Assembly: GCF_947487575.1 (NCBI RefSeq) | Contig: NZ_CANKXG010000002.1 | Coordinates: forward strand, 62,001 to 126,000 | Source of the DNA: an uncultured Algibacter sp. | Lineage (GTDB): Bacteria > Bacteroidota > Bacteroidia > Flavobacteriales > Flavobacteriaceae | Direction of reading: 5' to 3' | DNA: 64,000 nt | In this document: positions 10,393 to 62,126 of the stretch, one piece after another | Position numbering within the stretch: the first letter of the stretch is position 1 | How the letters are laid out: each line of letters begins with the position of its first letter | Notes under the pieces: model-generated | The model's database searches: none | What the model was told of the DNA's origin: nothing | The model's input: the letters and a program-made list of their open reading frames with translations, nothing else | Translations under genes and position numbers: made by a program

Positions 10393-10480
10393 GACATTAT
10401 TTTTATGTTTAAAGATAGTCTTTCTTATAAGTTACTTGCAAAGCTGTAACCTAAATTTGTGTTAATAACATAAGGTAAGT

Positions 10481-10624
10481 GCGTTAACGATTGCAGCGGC
10501 ATCCTTTTTAAAAACCAAAAATCACTATATTAAATTTTAGACAAATGACTGGCAGATTGTTACGTCGCTCACTCCTCACAATAACATTTTAAAAAGATAT
10601 AGCGGAAAGCGTGTTAAAACGCCC
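10481..10624 (-). repeat. Interspersed repeat R, copy 1
   Basis: Begins GCGTTAACGATTGCAGCGGCATCC and ends AAAAAGATATAGCGGAAAGC...AACGCCC. The same two ends occur at 23725-23872 and, shortened, at 41291-41374. It lies 5 bp beyond the stop codon of the PPK2 gene, in the same relative orientation as the other copies. The centre holds a sequence resembling a second short repeat (TGTTATTGTGAGGAGTGAGC on the minus strand). Confidence 0.75.
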
Positions 10625-19610: not shown

Positions 19611-19778
19611 GGTAAATTCAATTTTTTCAATCTTAAATTTAAGTTGGCAAAAGTACTGCCAATATTATAAAAATGTCATAATGTCATTAAAATAATTTAA
19701 TTTTTTTTTGATAGCTTATGCCTAATTTTACGACATATCTACTTAATGATTTTAATTAATAACACTAAAACATTTAAA

Positions 19779-20432
19779 ATGAAAAAGAATTTTGTAAAAA
19801 TTTTATTTATTACTGCTTTAACAATGTCTTTTACAAGTTGTAAAGACAAAGCAAAAGAAGCTGAAACTACTGCTGCTGAAGCTGTGGAAGAAACTATAAA
19901 TTCTGAAAGCTATACTGTTAATACAGAAGCCTCAACAATAACATGGAAAGGGTTTAAGCCTACAGGATCGCATAACGGAACAATTGCTATTGATAGTGGT
20001 GTTTTGGATATTGCAAACGGAAACGTTGTTGGTGGTTCTTTTATAATTGACATGAAATCTATTACAGTAACTGATATTCCTGCTGAAGAAAAAGGAAATG
20101 CAAAACTTAAAGGGCATTTATCTAGTCCAGACTTTTTTGATATTGAAAAATACCCAAATGCAGGTTTTACAATTACAGGTTTAGAAAATGTTGAAGGTAA
20201 AATGATGCTTTCGGGTAACCTATCGCTTAAAGATGCTAAAAACAATGTAACATTTCCTGTAACTGTTACTAATGAAAATGGTGTTGTTACGCTTACTAGC
20301 GAAACGTTTACTATTGACAGAACAAAATGGAACGTGCAATACGGTTCTAAATCAATTTTTGATAATTTAGGTGATAAATTTATTAATGATGATATGGAAT
20401 TAAAAGTTATGGTTAAGGCTGCTAAGTCTTAG
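19779..20432 (+). CDS. YceI-family lipoprotein
   Basis: A lipid-binding lipocalin-like YceI protein. I start it at the ATG at 19779, because MKKNFVKILFITALTMSFTSC is a lipoprotein signal peptide; an in-frame ATG at 19746 would add 11 residues before it. The YceI domain runs from about residue 45 (TVNTEASTITWKGFKPTGSHNG) to the end (LKVMVKAA). YceI proteins bind isoprenoid-type lipids in the periplasm; the ligand here is unknown. It ends in a good terminator. Confidence 0.9.
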   Translation: MKKNFVKILFITALTMSFTSCKDKAKEAETTAAEAVEETINSESYTVNTEASTITWKGFKPTGSHNGTIAIDSGVLDIANGNVVGGSFIIDMKSITVTDIPAEEKGNAKLKGHLSSPDFFDIEKYPNAGFTITGLENVEGKMMLSGNLSLKDAKNNVTFPVTVTNENGVVTLTSETFTIDRTKWNVQYGSKSIFDNLGDKFINDDMELKVMVKAAKS

Positions 20433-20495: not shown

Positions 20496-20572
20496 CTTGA
20501 CTTTGTAAAAAATTTCAGCTACCTTCGTTTACCGTCGGATATAAAACATTAAAAACGATTTCATATCCGACG
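20496..20572 (+). repeat. Element A1: left boundary of cassette array 1 (promoter-like sequence plus attC-like hairpin)
   Basis: About 90% identical to 36662-36742. First part: TTG and TACCTTCG 20 bases apart, resembling a Bacteroidota promoter reading into the cassette. Second part: TTCGTTTACCG (20524-20534) followed by the stem GTCGGATAT/ATATCCGAC (20534-20542, 20563-20571). It ends at the G of G^TTGGC, where the cassette begins. The TTCGTTTACCG is the exact reverse complement of 21799-21809 on the other side of the cassette. Confidence 0.7.
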
Positions 20573-20681
20573 TTGGCAATAATTAGAACGAAACCGAAAA
20601 CGAACTGCATTGAAACGAACTTATTATGGATTTCCGTAATTAAAATAAAATAAATAATCTGAAATTTGCTAAAATTAAATA

Positions 20682-21404
20682 ATGAAAAAAATAATATACT
20701 TAACTCTAATATCCATATTTCTATTTTCTTGTGTTAATCAATCTGAATACGACAAAGTAAAATTAGAAAACGATAAACTGAAAGCTGAATTAAACGAAAT
20801 TAAAAACGGAGCAGAATTTAGATTAAATCAAATTGTAGCTAATTTTGAAAATAAGAATTATTCTCAAATTGAAATTCTTGTAGACTCTCTGAAACAAATT
20901 CACCCTAACTCGGAAGAAAGTAAAAAAGCTATTTTAATAAATGAAAAATCTCAAAAAATAATTCTTGAAAGGAAAAAGAAAGAGGAAACAGAAAGATTAC
21001 TTAAAGAGAAAAATAGAGAAAAAACAAAAAAGGAAAAACTTAGACAAATAATAAGAATAAAACAATTTTATTCATCTAAACCAAATTCTGCTGGTGGTGT
21101 AGATTTTAATATAATTTGGCAAAATAAGTCTGATAAAACAGTAAAATATGCAACTTTTGAAGTAGTTCCATATAATGCTGTTGGTGATATTGTAGAATGT
21201 ACTATAAGGAATAGCTCAACATTTAGAGGGCAAGTTACAGGTCCTATTAAAAAGAATAAATGGAATGGTTATGGAACAACTTGGTCAAATGCTTGGTATA
21301 ATAATACAATAAAGAAAATAAAAATTACTGGAGTTGATATTGACTATGTAGATGGCACATCTGAAACATTATACAGTAGTGATATTGAATATGTGAAATA
21401 TTAA
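20682..21404 (+). CDS. Hypothetical lipoprotein with coiled coil, cassette 1
   Basis: 240 residues. The N-terminus MKKIIYLTLISIFLFSCVNQ is a lipoprotein signal peptide with Cys at 17. Residues 25-45 and 85-130 are predicted coiled coil, the latter very lysine/glutamate-rich. The C-terminal 110 residues (VDFNIIWQNKSDKTVKYATFEVVPYNAVGD) look like a small beta-sandwich of the kind that carries a FxxK-type extracytoplasmic domain; I do not recognise a named family. It is the first gene of cassette 1. Its more AT-rich codon use differs from neighbours, consistent with acquisition. Confidence 0.75.
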   Translation: MKKIIYLTLISIFLFSCVNQSEYDKVKLENDKLKAELNEIKNGAEFRLNQIVANFENKNYSQIEILVDSLKQIHPNSEESKKAILINEKSQKIILERKKKEETERLLKEKNREKTKKEKLRQIIRIKQFYSSKPNSAGGVDFNIIWQNKSDKTVKYATFEVVPYNAVGDIVECTIRNSSTFRGQVTGPIKKNKWNGYGTTWSNAWYNNTIKKIKITGVDIDYVDGTSETLYSSDIEYVKY

Positions 21405-21408
21405 AAAA

Positions 21409-21660
21409 ATGAAAAGAACTAAAAAATTTATAACCACAATTTTAATTATTATTGGTGTTTTATTTTCTTATGGAATTTGCAGAGGAATTTACGATGCAAA
21501 CTATAACCCAAAGTTAAGTTTACTTTCAATTGGAATGACTATAAACGGAATGAACCCAATTAGTAGTTATGGATATAAATTAGGAATTCATACAAACCCA
21601 GAAATACAAAAAAGGATTGATAATTTTAGAGAAGGTTCAGAAAAATATAATAATTATTAA
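21409..21660 (+). CDS. Small hypothetical membrane-anchored protein, cassette 1
   Basis: 83 residues. One N-terminal hydrophobic segment (FITTILIIIGVLFSYGICRG, about 7-26) followed by a short extracytoplasmic tail. It starts 4 bp after the preceding stop, so the two genes are translated from one transcript. No family recognised. Confidence 0.6.
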   Translation: MKRTKKFITTILIIIGVLFSYGICRGIYDANYNPKLSLLSIGMTINGMNPISSYGYKLGIHTNPEIQKRIDNFREGSEKYNNY

Positions 21661-21672
21661 ATATAAAAAACT

Positions 21673-21800
21673 ATTGCCAACACCGTATAAAAATAATTGC
21701 GGTTTAGTGCTTAATCAAAGGTCGTTGCGTGTTTGTAACGTCTGATTTTCCTTCGGAAAATCCTCGCATACAAACCCGCAACTATTCTTATACATAAACG
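21673..21800 (+). repeat. attC-like site B1 (3' end of cassette 1)
   Basis: Long imperfect hairpin: left arm 21677-21702 and right arm 21776-21801 share GTATAArAATArTTGCGG with two purine transitions. A nested hairpin GATTTTCC/GGAAAATC sits in the middle (about 21744-21762). The left edge is ATTGCCAAC; the right edge is ACGGTAAACGAA. Arm sequence is closely related to site B2 at 40380. Confidence 0.7.
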
Positions 21801-21820
21801 GTAAACGAACCTCGCCAAAA

Positions 21821-22726
21821 TCAACCCAATAAATCCTCTAAAGCAGATTTCAAACAGTTGTATTTAAAATAAAACCCTTTATCTTCTATTTTTTTAGAAC
21901 TTACACGTTGGCTTTCAAATAATAAAATATGCATATCTCCTAAAACGAGTTTCATAAAAAGCTTAGGAATATTTGGCATAAATAACGGTTTGTTTAAAAT
22001 TTTTGTTGCAGTTTTTGTTAGTTCCTTATTAGATACTGGGTTTGGTGCAACGCCATTGTAAATGCCATCTATCTCTTTTTCTAGAGTATATAAAAATAGA
22101 TTTGCTAAATCTTGAATATGTATCCATGATTGCCATTGCTTACCACTACCAAAAGCGGCTCCTAACCCGAATTTAATAGGTTTTACAATTTCTTGTAATG
22201 CTCCTCCTTTATTTGATAATACTAAACCAATTCTGATTTTTGAAACGGTAATGTCTAATTTTGAAAATTCATCAACAGCTTGTTCCCAAACTGAAACCAC
22301 TTGCCCTAAAAATGAGGAGCTAATTTCGTTATGGGTTTGATCGTAATAGTTAGTTAATGAATCTGGATAAATACCAATGGCACTTGCTGAAACCACTTGT
22401 TTAACTTGATGTTTTACACCTTTTAAAGAATGGATTAGTAATGCTGTGGTCTCCGTTCTACTAGATATAATTTCTTTTTTATAGCTGGAAGTCCAACGTT
22501 TTGATACGGTTGCTCCTGCTAAATGTATAATAGCATCAACATCTTGAAAGCAATATGAATCAATTTCTTTTGCTTTTGGGTTCCAATAAAATCCTTTATA
22601 ATTTTCGCTTTGTACTATCTTGGATTTACTAGTTGTTAAGTAGTTTACACTTATGTCTTTCTCATGACAAAGTTTGACTATTTCTTGACCTACCAATCCT
22701 GTTGCACCAGTTATTAAAACACGCAT
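21821..22726 (-). CDS. TIGR01777-type NAD(P)-dependent epimerase (SDR superfamily)
   Basis: 301 residues. Extended SDR of the YfcH group. Nucleotide-binding motif ITGATGLVGQEIV (residues 4-16), IIHLAGATVSKRW (about 65-77), active-site region SASAIGIYP (about 113) and C-terminal domain FMPNIPKLFMKLVLGDM. The substrate is unknown for this group; NADP binding is likely. The gene's 3' end directly borders cassette array 1, 20 bp from its boundary. Confidence 0.88.
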   Translation of the reverse strand: MRVLITGATGLVGQEIVKLCHEKDISVNYLTTSKSKIVQSENYKGFYWNPKAKEIDSYCFQDVDAIIHLAGATVSKRWTSSYKKEIISSRTETTALLIHSLKGVKHQVKQVVSASAIGIYPDSLTNYYDQTHNEISSSFLGQVVSVWEQAVDEFSKLDITVSKIRIGLVLSNKGGALQEIVKPIKFGLGAAFGSGKQWQSWIHIQDLANLFLYTLEKEIDGIYNGVAPNPVSNKELTKTATKILNKPLFMPNIPKLFMKLVLGDMHILLFESQRVSSKKIEDKGFYFKYNCLKSALEDLLG

Positions 22727-23689: not shown

Positions 23690-23724
23690 TTTTATATTTT
23701 AAAGTTGAAAATTTGTTGTTTGTT

Positions 23725-23872
23725 GCGTTAGGGATTGAAGCGGCATCCTTTTTTATTAACAAGACTCAAACATTATTTTGAACTAATATTTAACAGATAA
23801 CCACGTCCTTCGTCCTCGCTATGACATTATAAAAAAGATATAGCGGAAAGCCCGACCCTTGTGGTAACGCCC
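23725..23872 (-). repeat. Interspersed repeat R, copy 2
   Basis: GCGTTAGGGATTGAAGCGGCATCC at one end, AAAAAAGATATAGCGGAAAGCCCGACCC...TAACGCCC at the other. It lies 23 bp beyond the DUF4920 stop codon. The centre contains a second short repeat (TGTCATAGCGAGGACGAAGG on the minus strand). Confidence 0.78.
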
Positions 23873-25561: not shown

Positions 25562-25570
25562 TTGAAATAA

Positions 25571-25580
25571 AAAAGCAGCC
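25571..25580 (+). terminator. Left arm of a split ilvE/MazG-like terminator
   Basis: AAAAGCAGCC here and GGCTGCTTTT at 26982-26991 are exact reverse complements. In the uninterrupted genome they would form a bidirectional terminator between convergent genes; the IS now separates them by 1.4 kb. Confidence 0.7.
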
Positions 25581-25586
25581 CAATGA

Positions 25587-26976
25587 GCTAGTCATGGTCG
25601 GAAGATTTATTCTTCCGGCTTTTTTGTTTTATAAAACACAGGTGCCTGTTAATTAACTTATTGATTAACAGTTTCTTACCTTGTTTTTTAATGTGATTTT
25701 CGCATATTAATACCTGATAGCCAATATATTATGTCAGTATTTAAAGACCACAGAATTTCAGTAAGTCAATTATTAGGTGTTGTTCCAGAAGCGCTTTTAT
25801 CCAAATTATCATTAACGACCAAAGTTGATTATTACGCCAAGGTACTTCATGGCAAAAAAATGTTCTATTTGCTACTTTATGGTATTGTAGAGAATGATAA
25901 ACTAAGTCAACGCACTTTAGAAGATACTTTCAATGATTTTCTGTTTAAAACGCTTTTTGATTTAGATAAATCTGAAACTATAAGACGAAGTTCTATCTCT
26001 GAAAGATTATCTAAAATTGATTCCGATTACTTCCTCCAAATATACCAGTGTGTTTATCAGCAATTTCAAGATGCCTACCCTAACAAGGAAAAACACCATT
26101 TAATCCATGTAGATAGTTCTATGGTTAGTGAGGCTTCTTCCAAATTATTAAAAGGTTGACCATAAAAACGGAAAGAAATCTGTTAAATACAGCATGGCTT
26201 TTGATGGTTTGTTGCCTTGTCATTCTGAAGTATTTACTAAGTCGGAGTATTCTAGTGAAGATATGGCTTTACCCGAGGCTATAATGAATCATGTAAAGCA
26301 AGACGCAAATCATCAAAATATCTATGTCATTGATAGAGGACTTTAATCTACAAGAACAATGAACTCATTTACTAATGATGCTGTTACTTTTATTGTTAGA
26401 GCAAAAGAAAACCGAAAGCATGTAGAATTACAGTCATTACTTAATAAAAATCAAGACCTAGATTTAGGAGAATTAACCCTTATTAAAGACAGTAAAGTAA
26501 ATCTTTATACTGGAAAAGCGATACATAACAAAAAAGGAAATATACATTACAGAGAAGAATTAGTAGAAACTCCTTTTCGTTTAATTGTAGCAAAAACTAA
26601 AACAGAGCAACCAAAATACTTTTGGTTTATTACCAATGATTTTGATTTATCTGCAAAACAAGTAGCCCAAGCTTATAGAAGGCGATGGGATATTGAAGTA
26701 TTCTTTCGTTTTATAAAACAAGAACTCAATGCAAGCCATCTAGTCTCATTGAATAAAAATGGAATAGAAGTTATGCTATACATGACTTTAATTGTAGCAA
26801 TGTTAATATTAATCTATAAAAAAGCTAACAAAATAGGTTATAAAACAGCCAAGAGAAGATTTAAAATGGAACTCAGAAATTTAGCTATTGCTATGATTGT
26901 TGTAGACTGCAAAGGAAACTTAAACCATTTTGAGACTTAAAAAAAATGGTCGAAATTTCTTCCGACCATGACTAGC
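25587..26976 (+). mobile_element. IS4-family insertion sequence, inactivated
   Basis: 1390 bp bounded by perfect 19-bp inverted repeats: GCTAGTCATGGTCGGAAGA at 25587-25605 and its reverse complement at 26958-26976. The flanks CCCAATG (left) and CCAAATG (right) may be an imperfect target duplication. It contains one transposase gene with two inactivating lesions. Confidence 0.88.
25731..26940 (+). pseudogene. IS4-family transposase, frameshift plus nonsense
   Basis: DDE transposase. The first 142 residues are in one frame up to the TGA at 26157, including the first catalytic Asp in HVDSSMV. From 26158 the homology continues in the next frame (DHKNGKKSVKYSMAFDGLLP, then IYVIDRGL with the second Asp), reaching a TAA at 26344. 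After that stop the same frame continues to 26940, with AQAYRRRWDIEVFFRFIKQEL carrying the catalytic Glu in the YR-RW-E-FK motif. A one-base shift and an in-frame stop together make it a pseudogene; programmed frameshifting is not typical for IS4 and would not explain the second stop. Confidence 0.9.
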
Positions 26977-26992
26977 CAAATGGCTGCTTTTT

Positions 26993-27379
26993 TTATTTAT
27001 CTAAAATAGACTGAATGTTAGGTTTAAAATAATTTGGCCCTTTAAGTACCTTTCCGTCTTCACGATAAATAGGCTGTCCATTCTCTCCTAGTTTACTCAT
27101 ATTACTTCGCTGTATTTCTTCAAATACTTCTTCTATTTTATGTTGCATGCCATGCTCAATAATGGTTCCACACAAAATGTAAAGCATATCGCCTAAAGCA
27201 TCTGCAACCTCAACTAAATCATTGTTATTCGCTGCCTCGTAATACTCCTCGTTTTCCTCTTTCATTAAGTTAAAACGCAATTTGTTTTTGTCTTCTCCTA
27301 AATTAGCTTTTGGAGTTTCTCTATGTCCTATTTTAAATGCCGTATGAAAAGCCTTTACTGCTTCTATTTTATTTTTCAT
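26993..27379 (-). CDS. MazG-like NTP pyrophosphohydrolase family protein
   Basis: 128 residues, all-alpha NTP-PPase fold. The metal-binding motif KEENEEYYEA (about residues 40-49) and the second EVADALGDMLYIL (about 57-69) provide the acidic residues that hold magnesium. Relatives hydrolyse canonical or damaged nucleoside triphosphates, or phosphoribosyl-ATP; the short C-terminal IYREDGKVLKGPNYFKPN is typical of the stand-alone phage/flavobacterial type. Convergent with ilvE; its terminator was the target of the IS. Confidence 0.78.
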   Translation of the reverse strand: MKNKIEAVKAFHTAFKIGHRETPKANLGEDKNKLRFNLMKEENEEYYEAANNNDLVEVADALGDMLYILCGTIIEHGMQHKIEEVFEEIQRSNMSKLGENGQPIYREDGKVLKGPNYFKPNIQSILDK

Positions 27380-36661: not shown

Positions 36662-36742
36662 CTTGACTTTGTAAAAATTTTCAGCTACCTTCGTTTAACC
36701 TCGGATATAAAACATTAAAACGATTTCATATCCGTGGAACAG
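36662..36742 (+). repeat. Element A2: left boundary of cassette array 2 (promoter-like sequence plus attC-like hairpin)
   Basis: About 90% identical to A1 at 20496. TTG and TACCTTCG 20 bases apart form a promoter-like block. TCGTTTAAC (36691-36699) contains GTTTAAC, which fits the attC R'' consensus RYYYAAC, and is followed by the stem CGGATAT/ATATCCG (36702-36708, 36728-36734). It is the exact reverse complement of GTTAAACGA at 40630-40638 on the far side of the array. Confidence 0.7.
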
Positions 36743-36762
36743 TTGGCGAGCATTCAATAGAA

Positions 36763-37566
36763 ATGAATTACCATGAAACAATAGTATCAAATGAACAGCT
36801 AAAGGACAGTACTTTATGCTATTGGGAAATGAACGGTTTTATAGATCTAGAAGAGGGCATTGACTTGAGATATATCCCAGAAGGCCAAAATTTGTTAATC
36901 TTTAATTTTGGGAATCCTATTGAATTATTAGACACTTCAGAAAAAAACTCATTTTTAAGCTCTCCTTTTTTTGTCATTCCGGCGATTGCTTCAAGCAGGC
37001 TATTTAATCAAAAAGGGAAAATAGACCTTTTTGGAATTTCTTTTATTGCTGATGGACTTTTCAATTTAATACAGCAGCCCATTTCAAAACTTCAAAACAG
37101 TTTTCCAATTAATTTGAAAGATAAATGTGAAGAAATGTACGCCCAAATGGAGCAAATGACCTTTACGGATCGGTCTGAATTGGTAGAAAGTTTTTTAATC
37201 GGACATATCAAACAAAATAACGGAAATCCATCTTTCAGTAAAGCTTATAAAATGATCAAAGAGGCTAAAGGATGCATTAAGGTTAGCGACTTAGCTAAAA
37301 AGGTTTACGTAACTGAAAGGCAACTACAAAGACTATTCAGGATTCGTTTAGGAATCTCCCCAAAAGACTACTGTAAAGTGGTTCGGGTAAATAGCTATAT
37401 TGATTTTATTTTAAATAGAGAAAACCTTGTTGATTGGATGGAGCTAGTAGTTGCATTTGATTACCATGACCAGCCGCATTTAATTAATGAGGTAAAGGCT
37501 ATTTCAAAGTTATCTCCGCAAAAATTACTATCCTATCGTGATACCCTCTATGATTACTATGCTTAA
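36763..37566 (+). CDS. AraC-family transcriptional regulator
   Basis: 267 residues. An N-terminal effector-type domain (about 1-155, with the FFVIPAIASSRLFNQKGKIDLFGISF pattern seen in DUF6597-like AraC regulators) is followed by the two-helix AraC DNA-binding domain (KVSDLAKKVYVTERQLQRLFRIRLGISPKDYCKVVRVN, about 175-212, then VAFDYHDQPHLINEVKAISKLSPQKLL). First gene of cassette 2, read from the promoter-like A2 element 16 bp upstream of its cassette boundary. Its likely targets are the genes that follow. Confidence 0.88.
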   Translation: MNYHETIVSNEQLKDSTLCYWEMNGFIDLEEGIDLRYIPEGQNLLIFNFGNPIELLDTSEKNSFLSSPFFVIPAIASSRLFNQKGKIDLFGISFIADGLFNLIQQPISKLQNSFPINLKDKCEEMYAQMEQMTFTDRSELVESFLIGHIKQNNGNPSFSKAYKMIKEAKGCIKVSDLAKKVYVTERQLQRLFRIRLGISPKDYCKVVRVNSYIDFILNRENLVDWMELVVAFDYHDQPHLINEVKAISKLSPQKLLSYRDTLYDYYA

Positions 37567-37612
37567 TCTGAGATAGGTCGGATTTCTACAATTTTTACCT
37601 TTCACAAGGTTC

Positions 37613-37620
37613 TAGTTTTG
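37613..37620 (+). promoter_or_regulatory. Promoter -7 box (TAGTTTTG) before the hydrolase gene
   Basis: Matches TAnnTTTG and lies 13 bases before the ATG at 37634, so the hydrolase can be transcribed independently of the AraC gene. Confidence 0.4.
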
Positions 37621-37633
37621 TATCAAAAATTAA

Positions 37634-38556
37634 ATGAAACGAATTCTTCTGATACTAAACTTATTGATTATGTGTAACTCGGTAAAATCTCAAAGCTGGA
37701 TAGATACAACCTTATATCCATTTAAGTCAAACTTCTTAACAACTGAAACGGGTAAGTTACATTATGTTGATGAGGGGAAAGGTGATGTTATTTTATTTGT
37801 TCATGGTACGCCAACATGGTCTTTTCTTTATCGGAATTATATAAAGGAAATGTCCAAATCATACCGCTGTGTAGCCATAGATCATCTTGGTTTTGGACTG
37901 TCAGAAAAACCCAAAGATTTTGCAGGTACACCAAACGAACATTCGAATAATCTAAAACTTCTCATTGAGCATCTAAACCTAAAGGACATTACTCTAGTCG
38001 TTCATGATTTTGGTGGCCCTATTGGTTTGTCCTTTGCCATCTCCAAACCTGAGAACGTTAAAAGAATTATCATGTTCAATACCTGGCTTTGGGAAACAAA
38101 AGAAGATAAAAATGCTCAAAAGATTGATAGAATTCTTCATAGCAAACTTGGGAACTTTCTTTACTTGAATTCTAATTTTTCACCTAATGTGTTACTTAAA
38201 AAAGCTTTTTACAACAAAAAGCAACTAAGTAGAAACGTACATAAACATTACAAAGGCCCTTTTCCAAATAAGAACAGTAGGTATGGCTTGCTCAATATTG
38301 GAAAATCATTGATTGGTTCATCTAATTGGTATGGAGAATTATGGAAAAAAGCAGAAGTGATTAAAAACAAACCTGTTTTAATTCTTTGGGGAGAAAAAGA
38401 TGACTTCATCAAAAAAAAACAATTTGGAGAAGTGGCAAGATTTTCTGAGTAATGAAAAAACACACCTTTTTGAAGCAGGCCATTTTGTGCTAGAGGAAAA
38501 AACAGATGAAAGTATTGAGATTATTCGCCAATGGTTGAGTACTGAAATTCAATAAT
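37634..38556 (+). pseudogene. Haloalkane-dehalogenase-like alpha/beta hydrolase, frameshifted at an A9 tract
   Basis: The open frame runs 37634-38452: signal peptide-like N-terminus, oxyanion loop FVHGTPTWSFLY, nucleophile Asp in VVHDFGGPIGLSF (about residue 122) and acid in LILWGEKDDF. The catalytic His is missing from this frame. It lies in the next frame (WQDFLSNEKTHLFEAGHFVLEE), which runs to 38556. Reading the A9 tract at 38411-38419 as A8 joins the two frames without a gap. So the gene is either broken, phase-variable, or miscalled at a homopolymer. Dehalogenase versus other alpha/beta hydrolase activity is not decided by sequence. Confidence 0.85.
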
Positions 38557-38566
38557 TAAAATCGTC

Positions 38567-39367
38567 ATGGGAAAAATCAATAGTTTATTAGTTTCAAATC
38601 CAATTTTTGGATTTGTTATACTAACATTTTTTATCTCTGCTGCTTCATTCTTGATTATGCTAAAGATTCCTGAGGCTCAAACGCCAGAATCTATGAAAGG
38701 ATTACCTGTATGGCTCATAGCTATTTGGAGTCCAAACATTGCTGCTATTATTATATGGTTAGCTCAGAAAAAAGCACTTTTGAGTATTAAAGCTGCATTT
38801 TCAATTCCACAATTTTCATGGTGGATGTTATTAGTATTAATTCCCTTACTTGTTGCTGGGATATTATTAATTATAGAAGTTTCAAGAGGAAACACAATTC
38901 AATGGTCGAATTTTAAACTGAGTTATGTTTTACCTCTTGTATTCATCAATCTAATTATGGGACCATTGGGAGAAGAGTTGGGTTGGCGTGGATTTCTATA
39001 CCCAATACTAAAAAGTAATTATGGTTGGATGGGAGGCGCCTTGGTAATAGGTGCTATATGGGCTATTTGGCACGCCCCATTATGGTTTCTTGATTCTCCT
39101 CAATCAAAAATTCCTTTTTGGGCATTCGCTATCAATGTAGTCTTACTGAGCATCTTAATGTCTATCATTTACAATCATTCTCAAGGCTCCATTTTAGCTG
39201 TGGTTTTACTACATCTAACTTTTAATGTAAGCCTTGGCTTTATTGATATTTTAGGCTCTCATCAATCAGGAGTTTATATTATCAAAAGCTTGTACATATA
39301 TGTTCCGTTGGTATTAGTGCTGATTGGCATTCATGAAATCACAAAAACATATCAATGTGAAATTTAA
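38567..39367 (+). CDS. CPBP family intramembrane metalloprotease
   Basis: 266 residues with about eight membrane segments. The Rce1/CAAX-type motifs are present: GPLGEELGWRGFLYP (about 126-140; glutamates and arginine), AIWHAPLWFLD (about 167-177) and LLHLTFNVSLG (about 216; His and Asn). The substrate is unknown; in bacteria these proteins act in signalling, bacteriocin immunity or maturation of exported peptides. It starts 10 bp after the repaired hydrolase stop. Third gene of cassette 2, intact. Confidence 0.88.
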   Translation: MGKINSLLVSNPIFGFVILTFFISAASFLIMLKIPEAQTPESMKGLPVWLIAIWSPNIAAIIIWLAQKKALLSIKAAFSIPQFSWWMLLVLIPLLVAGILLIIEVSRGNTIQWSNFKLSYVLPLVFINLIMGPLGEELGWRGFLYPILKSNYGWMGGALVIGAIWAIWHAPLWFLDSPQSKIPFWAFAINVVLLSILMSIIYNHSQGSILAVVLLHLTFNVSLGFIDILGSHQSGVYIIKSLYIYVPLVLVLIGIHEITKTYQCEI

Positions 39368-39388
39368 TTTAAATAAAGACAAATTATT

Positions 39389-40315
39389 ATGAGTAAAAAG
39401 ACGCTTATTTATGGAATTCTAATACTGAATTTATTATACTGATGTTCCAATATTAAAGAAACTCAAGTCCTTTCGGAAAATTCGAATCATACTTCGATAA
39501 TGTTGCTTGGAGTATACCACTTTAATAACCCTGGAAAAGACAGCTACAATACAGAGGTTGATGACTATGGGACGACTAAAAGACAAAAAGAAATCAAAGA
39601 AGTAGTTCATTTGTTAGAAGAATTTAAGCCTACCAAAATTCTTGTTGAACTTTCTCCAACAGAGCAATCAAAAATAGATAGTTTATATAATCTTTATTTA
39701 ACAAATCAAATCACTCTGGAGGATATTCAAGGCGGTATTAATGAAGTATATCAAATTGGTTTTAGGCTTGGAAAGCAACTAAACGGGATTGATGTAATTG
39801 CTGTTGATTACCATGGCAACTGGCTTGCTCCTTATGCAGATTTTATTGCGGATACCTTGGTGTTTGAGGATTATTTGAACCATAGTTCTACTTATGCACA
39901 AAGTATGAAAGAAAAAAATGACTTGTTTTTAAAAAACAGCATTAGAGAGAACCTGATTTACTTGAACGAGCAAGAGCAAATATTAGACAATCACAATTAC
40001 TATAATAATATTGCTATCAAGGTTAAGGATACAGCAAATATTATGTTTACGTATCAAGAATCAGAGCAAGAAATAAACGGTCTGCATTATCAAATGAGGT
40101 CTTTTGATTTCGATAATATAGGAGTAGAACTAGTGGCAGAATGGTACAAACGTAACTTATTCATTTATCGGAATATTCTTGAAAATTCAGAAGAAAACGA
40201 TAGGATACTTTTGATAATTGGAAGTGGACATGTTTTCTATTTAAACCAATTACTCGAAAATAATTCGAAATGTAAATTGATAAGACCAAATGAGTTTATG
40301 AGTCGGCAAGATTAA
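39389..40315 (+). pseudogene. DUF5694 protein, nonsense codon in the lipoprotein signal peptide
   Basis: From ATG 39389 the frame reads MSKKTLIYGILILNLLY, then TGA at 39440-39442, then CSNIKETQ and on to the domain in the same frame. The expected lipobox would be LLY-x-C, so one stop replaces the residue before the lipidated Cys. The domain from 39500 is intact: LLGVYHFNNPGKD (about 1-13), KPTKILVELSP, IDVIAVDYHGNWL and LLIIGSGHVFYLNQLL, which resembles the TraB/DUF5694 erythromycin-esterase-like set of histidines and acids. An ATG at 39500 allows a cytosolic version. TGA could also be decoded by readthrough. Confidence 0.78.
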
Positions 40316-40379
40316 GATAAACCAATTTTCTAAAAAAACTCTTTTTAGTGATAAAAGTTGAGAATAATAATAAAAACGA

Positions 40380-40507
40380 CTCGCCAACAATGTATAAAAG
40401 CAATAGCGGTTTGGGTGTGTATTCGAGCCATTTATTGTGTTTAATTGAGTATTTTAACATCCGAAAGTTTAGTACAATATAATCCGCTACTGCTCTTATA
40501 CAGAACG
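40380..40507 (+). repeat. attC-like site B2 (3' end of cassette 2)
   Basis: Left arm 40384-40409 and right arm 40484-40511 pair over GTATAArAGCArTAGCGG with two purine transitions. Edges: CTCGCCAAC on the left, AACG^TTGG on the right. Arms closely resemble site B1. Confidence 0.72.
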
Positions 40508-40630
40508 TTGGAGTGAATTCCTGCGTCATTCACTCCAACGTCCCGCGAATAAGATTTGGAGCGACTGCCAAAAGGCACTCACACCAACAACGAATAAAAT
40601 TCATTGAAACAAATCTTATTCGCGGGGACG
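40508..40630 (+). mobile_element. Integron-like mini-cassette 3, no ORF
   Basis: Starts GTTGGAGTGAAT (40507-40518) and its reverse complement ATTCACTCCAAC follows after only 9 bases (40528-40539). The rest is the attC-like site itself. The 123-bp unit has no room for a gene. Confidence 0.62.
40528..40630 (+). repeat. attC-like site B3
   Basis: Left arm AACGTCCCGCGAATAAGATTTG (40537-40558) and right arm CAAATCTTATTCGCGGGGACGTT (40610-40632) pair perfectly apart from one unpaired G. A bulged extra base in one arm is a known attC feature. The site ends GTTAAAC, which fits the R' consensus GTTRRRY exactly. Confidence 0.75.
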
Positions 40631-40661
40631 TTAAACGAGCCTCCCAAAATCCTCATAAAAC

Positions 40662-61992: not shown

Positions 61993-62030
61993 ACTTAACT
62001 TTGTAAAAATTTTCAACCGCCCTAGTTTTA
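61993..62030 (+). repeat. Partial copy of the A element (promoter-like half)
   Basis: Resembles the 5' half of A1 and A2 over about 38 bases, with most mismatches near its 3' end; there is no GGATAT/ATATCC stem after it. A CCTAG/CTAGG pair at 62022-62043 replaces it. Confidence 0.5.
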
Positions 62031-62126
62031 CAATAAGCTAGGCTCCTGAAAACATTCTGTATTCAAATCATGGTGGTTCTACTTTCTAAAAATTTCGCCA
62101 TATTTAAGATTAGTTCTATGGAATCA

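Follow-up and report, generated by a model that had tools for sequence, protein, structure and literature searches.

A cassette-like insert in a promoter-bearing docking site points to an integron-like system in Flavobacteriaceae

What kind of element separates a YceI-family gene (19746-20432, + strand) from an epimerase-family gene (21821-22726, - strand) in the genome of an uncultured Algibacter sp.? The window, by which we mean the whole 64-kb stretch of DNA analysed (64,000 nucleotides), carries an insert between them at 20572-21799. In a preliminary description it had been taken for an integron cassette that split a pre-existing attC-like site. The four boxes on which this rested were all found: the insert start GTTGGCAAT (20572-20580) with its exact reverse complement ATTGCCAAC (21673-21681), and the outer flanks TTCGTTTACCG (20524-20534) and CGGTAAACGAA (21799-21809), which are complementary across the insert. 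Both cargo genes had the expected orientation (20682-21404 and 21409-21660, + strand). The imperfect hairpin reported at the 3' end of the insert was also found, since 21669-21812 folded into a long, imperfect structure that was better than all 200 shuffles (bottom strand: −22.2 kcal/mol, z −3.41; top strand: −20.7 kcal/mol, z −3.75). A further hairpin at 20534-20571 was absent from the preliminary list; with it, the uninterrupted site would form a perfect 19-bp stem. The observation of a cassette-like insert with pair-specific complementary ends is real, and was confirmed. The locus is made up of the following features:

20497..20527, + strand: promoter-like part of the docking element, TTGA (20497-20500), 19 nt, then TACCTTCG (20520-20527)
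20524..20533, + strand: left outer arm, R''-like, TTCGTTTACC, complementary to 21800-21809
20534..20571, + strand: docking-site hairpin GTCGGATAT...ATATCCGAC, L''/L'-like
20572..21799, + strand: gene cassette of about 1.2 kb
20572..20581, + strand: R'-like start of the cassette, complementary to the cassette's R'' at 21672-21681
20682..21404, + strand: open reading frame of 240 aa, no Pfam family
21409..21660, + strand: open reading frame of 83 aa, no Pfam family
21673..21681, + strand: R''-like box ATTGCCAAC of the cassette attC
21682..21799, - strand: attC-like hairpin
21800..21820, + strand: right outer arm GGTAAACGAA, R'-like, and right flank CCTCGCCAAAA

The promoter-like part, docking hairpin, R''-like box and right arm were read from the sequence; the cassette was delimited by empty or differently filled orthologous alleles and by the junction series, and the attC-like hairpin by folding, related hairpins in the same genome and compensatory changes. 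The promoter-like sequence TTGA-N19-TACCTTCG overlaps the left arm TTCGTTTACC. Crossover probably occurs between G 20572 and T 20573 (G^TT), and the active strand of the 21682-21799 hairpin is probably the bottom strand. The 240-aa protein had no homolog at E ≤ 1e-8 in the 198 other family genomes searched.

The complementarity at the window locus alone is modest evidence. Among 2000 dinucleotide shuffles of the locus, 41 contained an 11-mer outer pair and nine contained such a pair plus extra 9-mer matches as observed, a single-locus frequency that is not negligible across a 64-kb window, so the case depends on recurrence and comparison. Intergenic hairpins are common, and ordinary transcription terminators with coincidental complementarities could look much like this. 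This reading, which the preliminary description had set against its own, is contradicted by the comparative data given below (arm pairs that have changed yet still match, empty sites at orthologous loci, and a cassette array), and we consider it extremely unlikely.

The YceI protein was present in 10/10 genomes of the genus set, and the DNA downstream of its gene was read. An empty allele, as had been predicted, was found in G002, the closest congener at this gene (95% protein identity). At its YceI-epimerase locus (L089) the promoter motif, arm and hairpin are followed by the right arm and flank, so that left arm, hairpin and right arm are joined with no insert. The cassette lies in a pre-existing palindromic site, the halves of which now flank it. 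Genomes G007 and G009 kept the docking element at the YceI locus, each with another insert; the G007 cassette starts with TTATCTCTC and ends in a GAGAGATAAC-hairpin. The locus of G005 had no recognisable element, possibly a short remnant, G008 had a different gene at this position, and by reading, the gene downstream of YceI differed in G001, G003, G004 and G006. Empty docking copies were also present elsewhere in the genome under study, at C1:416154, C9:198443 and C4:5788. The claim of a pre-existing attC-like site therefore held in that the site exists without the insert, but it is not a lone attC: it is one of a family of promoter-bearing sites dispersed over the genome.

The left half of the docking element, used as a 76-nt query, gave at least 36 matches at E ≤ 0.001 in the genome's own sequence. 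At the same threshold there were at least 37 matches in G007, 27 in G002, 22 in G009, 20 in G008 and 14 in G001, with lower counts in G004 (at least 9), G003 (at least 7) and G005 (at least 6). Among the candidates scored, no more than 40 in each genome, G006 had no match at E ≤ 0.001; the element thus occurs in nine of the ten genus genomes. Sites were parsed from the BLAST matches. The 34 own sites comprised 19 with gene cassettes, four gene-less, three empty and eight for which the script found no right end; one of these eight (C12:65694) was gene-less and closed by a changed but matching arm. None of the sites parsed in the other three genomes was classed as gene-less; they comprised 12 gene cassettes, five empty sites and seven without a right end in G002 (24 sites), 17, three and three in G007 (23 sites, from 28 hits), and five, one and seven in G009 (13 sites, from 14 hits).

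Right ends had been searched for by arm complementarity with up to two mismatches allowed. The arm pairs were exactly complementary in 44 of the 69 closed sites, changed pairs included (TTCGTTTAAC/GTTAAACGAA, n = 39; TTCGTTTACC/GGTAAACGAA, n = 4; TTCGCTAACG/CGTTAGCGAA, n = 1), and differed at one or two positions in the remaining 25. The motif TTGA-N19-TAnnTTCG adjoined the crossover in aligned copies; its spacing was 19 nt in 61 of the 69 closed sites and 17-20 nt in five, and the motif was absent in three. A Bacteroides −7 consensus of TAnnTTTG is given in a passage of PMC4747536, and we regard the docking motif as promoter-like, a putative Bacteroidetes-type promoter. The longest frame of the insert ran in the sense of this promoter in 52 of 53 inserts. 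Across 66 sites, 89.2% of the cells of the 7-bp docking stem were paired, compared with 17-51% when the stem was slid, and its covariation score exceeded all 500 shuffles, kinship being ignored. On two of five measures, doubly changed pairs and pair types, the stem was not above shuffles over the 66 sites. RNAalifold predicted no pair on the docking alignment, so the docking profile (R1) was built from sequence only and the stem was tested by naming its pairs.

The window contains a second docking site and a probable remnant of a third:

36663..36741, + strand: second docking element with promoter motif, left arm TTCGTTTAAC (36690-36699) and hairpin
36742..40506, + strand: multi-gene cassette with the frame 36763-37566, an alpha/beta hydrolase, an Rce1-like protease, DUF5694 and an attC-like end
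40507..40629, + strand: gene-less cassette, GTTGGAGTGAAT...ATTCACTCCAAC followed by a GTCCCGCG... hairpin
40630..40639, + strand: right outer arm GTTAAACGAG of the second docking site
61993..62031, + strand: probable decayed docking element, promoter part only, with no recognisable site

The start GTTGGCGAG of the multi-gene cassette matches CTCGCCAAC at 40380-40388, and the frame 36763-37566 is presumably AraC-like. The right flank of the second site (36663-40639) matched sites with other inserts in G002 and G007 at about 80%; the left flank did not match them. The gene-less cassette recurs in six own docking sites, the window's 40507-40629 included, and in three copies in an array on contig C6. 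Lying behind a promoter and having strong hairpins, it might serve as a plug or terminator. A second gene-less insert type of 267 nt, including the docking hairpin, is present as two near copies in G002 (L164, C1:1551017; L166, C1:94903). An Rfam search over the window detected two Flavo-1 RNAs above the gathering score (10479-10620 and 23720-23861) and nothing else, no attC family being among the results. A 41-nt inverted repeat (80%; 25565-25605 and 26958-26998) flanks frames at 25731-26940.

The contents of orthologous docking sites were compared between species, in pairs whose two flanks each matched over 200 nt or more (31 pairs covering 13 own sites; the pairs overlap in sites). Gene cassettes were present on both sides in 17 pairs, and none of the 17 shared cargo in blastn and tblastx comparisons of the trimmed inserts, one 48-nt match being the only insert sequence in common. 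The other pairs were occupied/empty (11), gene-less/empty (1), cassette/gene-less (1) and both empty (1). The exchange of genes can thus be measured site by site. These alignments show that the docking element can occur empty, that species share it at the same locus, and that its cassettes differ or are missing there. Among the main frames of 18 own docking inserts were a C5 DNA methylase, a redoxin, an amidohydrolase, an alpha/beta hydrolase, a phosphotransferase-family protein and a cNMP-binding protein; half of them (9/18) had no Pfam family at E ≤ 0.001.

Turnover of this kind might come about by homologous recombination or gene conversion between short homologous repeats, with no site-specific recombinase involved. 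The left halves in the genus genomes were 74-100% identical to the 76-nt query among the matches listed, which makes recombination between copies possible, and the own site C11:77964 and its counterpart in G007 (C2:670031) have flanks that are 99% and 97% identical around differing inserts. However, the conserved right half measures only about 20 nt, and inserts mostly begin at one position: the junction was (A/G)^TT in most sites read. Moreover, a start matching the insert's own R'' over at least 7 nt was found in 29 of 50 docking inserts, compared with 6.8% when tails were swapped, and insert ends are of the hairpin type found in a recombinase-headed array (see below). The 21 docking inserts without such a match count against cassette insertion, as do the own sites for which no right end was found; at least one of the 21 holds several cassettes, and others may be decayed. 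Homologous exchange is in our judgement unlikely. The promoter, cargo and right end might also move as one unit, as a composite transposon or MITE. The family is dispersed and abundant, as would be expected of such an element, but cargo did not travel with the element ends, since orthologous loci carry the element with different cargo or none. We consider this very unlikely for the cargo, while movement of the transposon or MITE type is possible for the original spread of bare docking elements. Insertion of mobile cassettes by integron-like, site-specific recombination into dispersed, promoter-bearing attC-like docking sites very probably explains the insert in the window.

The cassette hairpin of the window matched many places on one strand of contig C6 in the same genome. 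These belong to an array of about 36 kb (G000:C6:250415-286648) with 34 intervals between cassette boundaries, which extends to within 75 nt of the contig end. The head of the array, read in C6:246723-286722, consists of a gene that we take to be dnaG, a tyrosine recombinase gene (249200-250381), an attI-like sequence (...ATATAACTA^GTT) shortly after the recombinase stop codon, and the cassettes. Starts matched their own R'' over 7-10 contiguous bases in 31 of the 34 intervals (mean 9.06 over all 34). Non-cognate pairs, for which the R'' position was re-optimised in the same way, had a mean of 4.50 and reached at least 7 bases in 5.5% of 1122 cases, or 1.1% if the first seven bases differed. 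The other three intervals begin with a gene-less cassette whose inner boundary was missed by the pattern. The start-to-R'' match, proposed as a cassette signature for the window insert, thus recurs in the array as in the docking inserts. Taken together, the changes in arm pairs and the recurrence in the array (31/34 compared with 5.5%) place the complementarity beyond chance.

Folding agreed with the expected attC structure on the bottom strand. When the R''-to-L' segment was fused to the start of the same cassette, and the three gene-less starts were excluded, the bottom strand was the more stable one in 31 of 31 array cassettes (mean 3.75 kcal/mol). A bottom-strand consensus of 17 hairpins, chosen from array and docking sites, had 33 pairs, of which four were changed on both sides. 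The cassette ends thus have the R''/L''/L'/R' hairpin of attC sites, and alignment shows the same hairpin type at the ends of docking cassettes and of cassettes in the recombinase-headed array. The 34 intervals form a tandem array of presumably mobile cassettes. None of the cargo of the parsed docking sites was found in the genome's own array, so that a reservoir role of the array, like transfer between array and docking sites, is at most a possibility. A sequence of the form ..ATATAA(CTA/TAA/CAA/CAC)^GTT followed the recombinase stop in 9 of 11 loci, two of which (L102 and L260) had the same sequence; as exceptions, L263 reads GCT and L286 has no such sequence.

The recombinase at the head of the array is a tyrosine recombinase of 393 aa (C6:249200-250381). 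Its best NCBIfam model was the integron integrase TIGR02249, matched in two stretches with 212.8 bits against a cut-off of 265; the scores with XerA, XerC and XerD were 205, 183 and 179. Residues 183-246 of IntI4 (2a3v; 64 residues) face 21 residues in the recombinase, in which the IntI-specific region is thus missing, while XerA-like structures (5hxy, 4a8e) aligned to the catalytic part without a break. The spacing between RxSE and HxLRH was 127 in 16/16 classical IntI and 85 in 8/8 genus-set rows, with a median of 85 (range 85-203) in 36 flavobacterial rows; the measure dropped 5 of 21 IntI rows and one of two Xer rows, and 9 of 30 IntI loci gave no frame and were dropped. In a phylogenetic tree, the rooting of which is unsure because of long Xer branches, the recombinases fell to one side of a branch that had 55/92 support and appeared in 94% of bootstraps, and IntI formed one group (100/100). 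The protein has an added N-terminal domain, modelled by AlphaFold for the Olleya namhaensis homolog as beta-beta-alpha-beta-beta-alpha (mean pLDDT 85). The domain model weakly matched the HARP domain of SMARCAL1 (4o66, rank 4, E 0.47), and Pfam HARP was detected in 2 of 36 recombinase members at E ≤ 0.1; a HARP-like fold is a lead only.

The additional domain of IntI is treated as defining in a passage of PMC9668308 and is used to select IntI in a passage of PMC2426708. Because the recombinase is without it, the system is integron-like and a classical integron is not established. The integron cassette claim of the preliminary description is borne out with this refinement, and the mechanism that it proposed appears largely right and is supported. 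The recombinase gene was a single open frame in G001, G005 and G007 and split into two frames in G002 only, and the G008 recombinase was identical to that of the uncultured Algibacter sp. isolate 4-1434 (L260). A docking element near xerC (L023) was considered as an attI beside an integrase and dropped, as the gene in question (L032) is XerC; the gene that follows it is presumably hpf.

A classical IntI acting in trans from a plasmid or phage might carry out the recombination, with the recombinase beside the array as a bystander. Classical IntI over the cut-off was present in 84 of 296 phylum genomes, and five of six phage attC sites tested were active with IntI1 according to a section of PMC9892861. 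Against this, the genomes with IntI among the matches listed all belong to other families, and at many loci the listed recombinase is followed by array-like sequence. The seven PF00589 matches of the own genome included no IntI over the cut-off; apart from the array recombinase they were XerC, XerD and four with far lower scores against the NCBIfam models. Action of IntI in trans therefore seems improbable to us.

The docking profile R1, with up to 23 matches scored in each genome, matched in 57 of the 199 Flavobacteriaceae genomes sampled, and the recombinase profile in 123 of 199 at E ≤ 1e-70. The recombinase was present in 46 of the 57 docking-bearing genomes compared with 77 of the 142 others (Fisher p 6e-4, kinship ignored); the other 11 docking-bearing genomes had no match at this threshold. 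In the genus set, G004 had no recombinase match at E ≤ 1e-50 alongside its docking matches (at least 9), and the only match in G002 (at least 27 docking matches) at this level was the split gene. These two genomes count against the integron-like reading, as do the 11 above. The single-contig genome G179 had at least 18 docking matches and no recombinase match at E ≤ 1e-70; two of its sites were read and both were filled. Of 12 docking loci read in other genera, ten were closed by a matching right arm, two of these ten being empty. A docking-like element was also seen on a 7-kb Pontimicrobium plasmid (NZ_CP157200.1, 2041-2111).

A recombinase and attI-like sequence next to an array occurred in other genera as well. 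An alignment-based contig search yielded 80 recombinase loci (L259-L338); a single-sequence search yielded none. Applied to 74 of the 80 loci, a noisy counter found 136 array-like pairs in a total of 330,547 b on the downstream side of the recombinase, compared with 80 in 723,150 b upstream. For 12 of these 74 loci the stored contig broke off no more than 200 nt beyond the match to the recombinase; array repeats may be breaking assemblies, and such arrays may be hidden in draft genomes. A relative of the cassette hairpin was detected in Winogradskyella phage Peternella_1 (82% over 86% of the query), with shorter matches in Polaribacter phage P12002S and Cellulophaga phage phi46:3 (phage records MT732475.1, KR136260.1 and KC821622.1), so cassettes may travel on phages.

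The best reading of these data is an integron-like system of the Flavobacteriaceae with scattered, probably individually promoted docking sites. Related species appear to keep the same docking sites and to hold different genes in them. Cassettes would come in circular form, with the docking hairpin as their partner in recombination, and the array recombinase, or a close relative of it, would resolve the single-stranded hairpins in the manner of IntI. The docking promoter would then transcribe the cassette genes, making each docking site an individual expression slot. We lean, with less assurance, towards the view that the whole constitutes a distributed integron, based on a recombinase lineage other than classical IntI, possibly with a HARP-like N-terminal domain, and on dozens of individually promoted docking stations. 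In such a distributed integron the N-terminal domain may have taken over hairpin recognition from the extra domain of IntI, and each station would keep its locus by inheritance, with the genes that it holds being exchanged between species. If this is true, the genome operates many cassette slots in parallel, each expressed on its own.

Most cassettes of large chromosomal integrons are said to be non-expressed in a passage of PMC11023631; cassettes placed behind dozens of scattered promoter motifs bear on the expression and upkeep of large cassette pools. A recombinase without the IntI-defining domain that heads attC-type arrays across a family would offer a test of whether the domain is needed for hairpin recombination. 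Integrase surveys that select on the IntI domain, as in the passage of PMC2426708, would overlook a system with such a recombinase. Integrons have been reported in Bacteroidota generally (passages of PMC8618304 and PMC9668308). In the literature searched, which was mostly open-access and contained no bioRxiv preprints, we found neither a flavobacterial integron with such a recombinase nor dispersed promoter-bearing docking sites.

Several known systems share features with this one. Like XerA and archaeal Xer proteins, the recombinase has a catalytic part that aligns uninterrupted to XerA and to an XerC-like archaeal structure; unlike them, it has TIGR02249 as its best model (below the cut-off), carries an extra N-terminal domain and heads a cassette array. 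Class 1 integrons have arrays whose direction differs from that of the integrase gene, whereas here array and recombinase gene point the same way. In archaeal integrons, an attI downstream of intI is described in a passage of PMC9668308. Sites termed attG likewise receive cassettes at genomic positions outside the array; a passage of PMC12901181, citing Loot et al. 2024, defines them as non-classical genomic integration sites that diverge from classical att sites. The docking sites, in contrast, are a conserved repeat family with a promoter motif, palindromic arms and a hairpin, kept at orthologous loci where they hold different cassettes. Measured against that one passage, which has attG structure diverging from attI and attC, they are palindromic and attC-like, and their hairpins with conserved arms and stem argue against membership in attG.

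Clusters of attC sites without an integrase (CALINs) also consist of attC-bearing cassettes away from an integrase gene. Passages of PMC9892861 report a CALIN in a Polaribacter phage, and a site of Polaribacter phage P12002L among the phage attC sites active with IntI1. Unlike CALINs, docking cassettes each sit in a promoter-bearing palindromic site, often alone, and the genome has a recombinase-headed array. Sedentary chromosomal integrons have in common with the Algibacter system cassettes arranged in tandem, all oriented alike and each carrying a hairpin site on its 3' side, a start complementary to R'', a G^TT-type junction, a bottom strand that folds better, and a recombinase with an attI-like site at the head of the array. 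The Algibacter recombinase differs from theirs in being without the IntI-specific region and in having the extra N-terminal domain, and the genome differs in carrying dozens of extra landing sites with promoter motifs outside the array.
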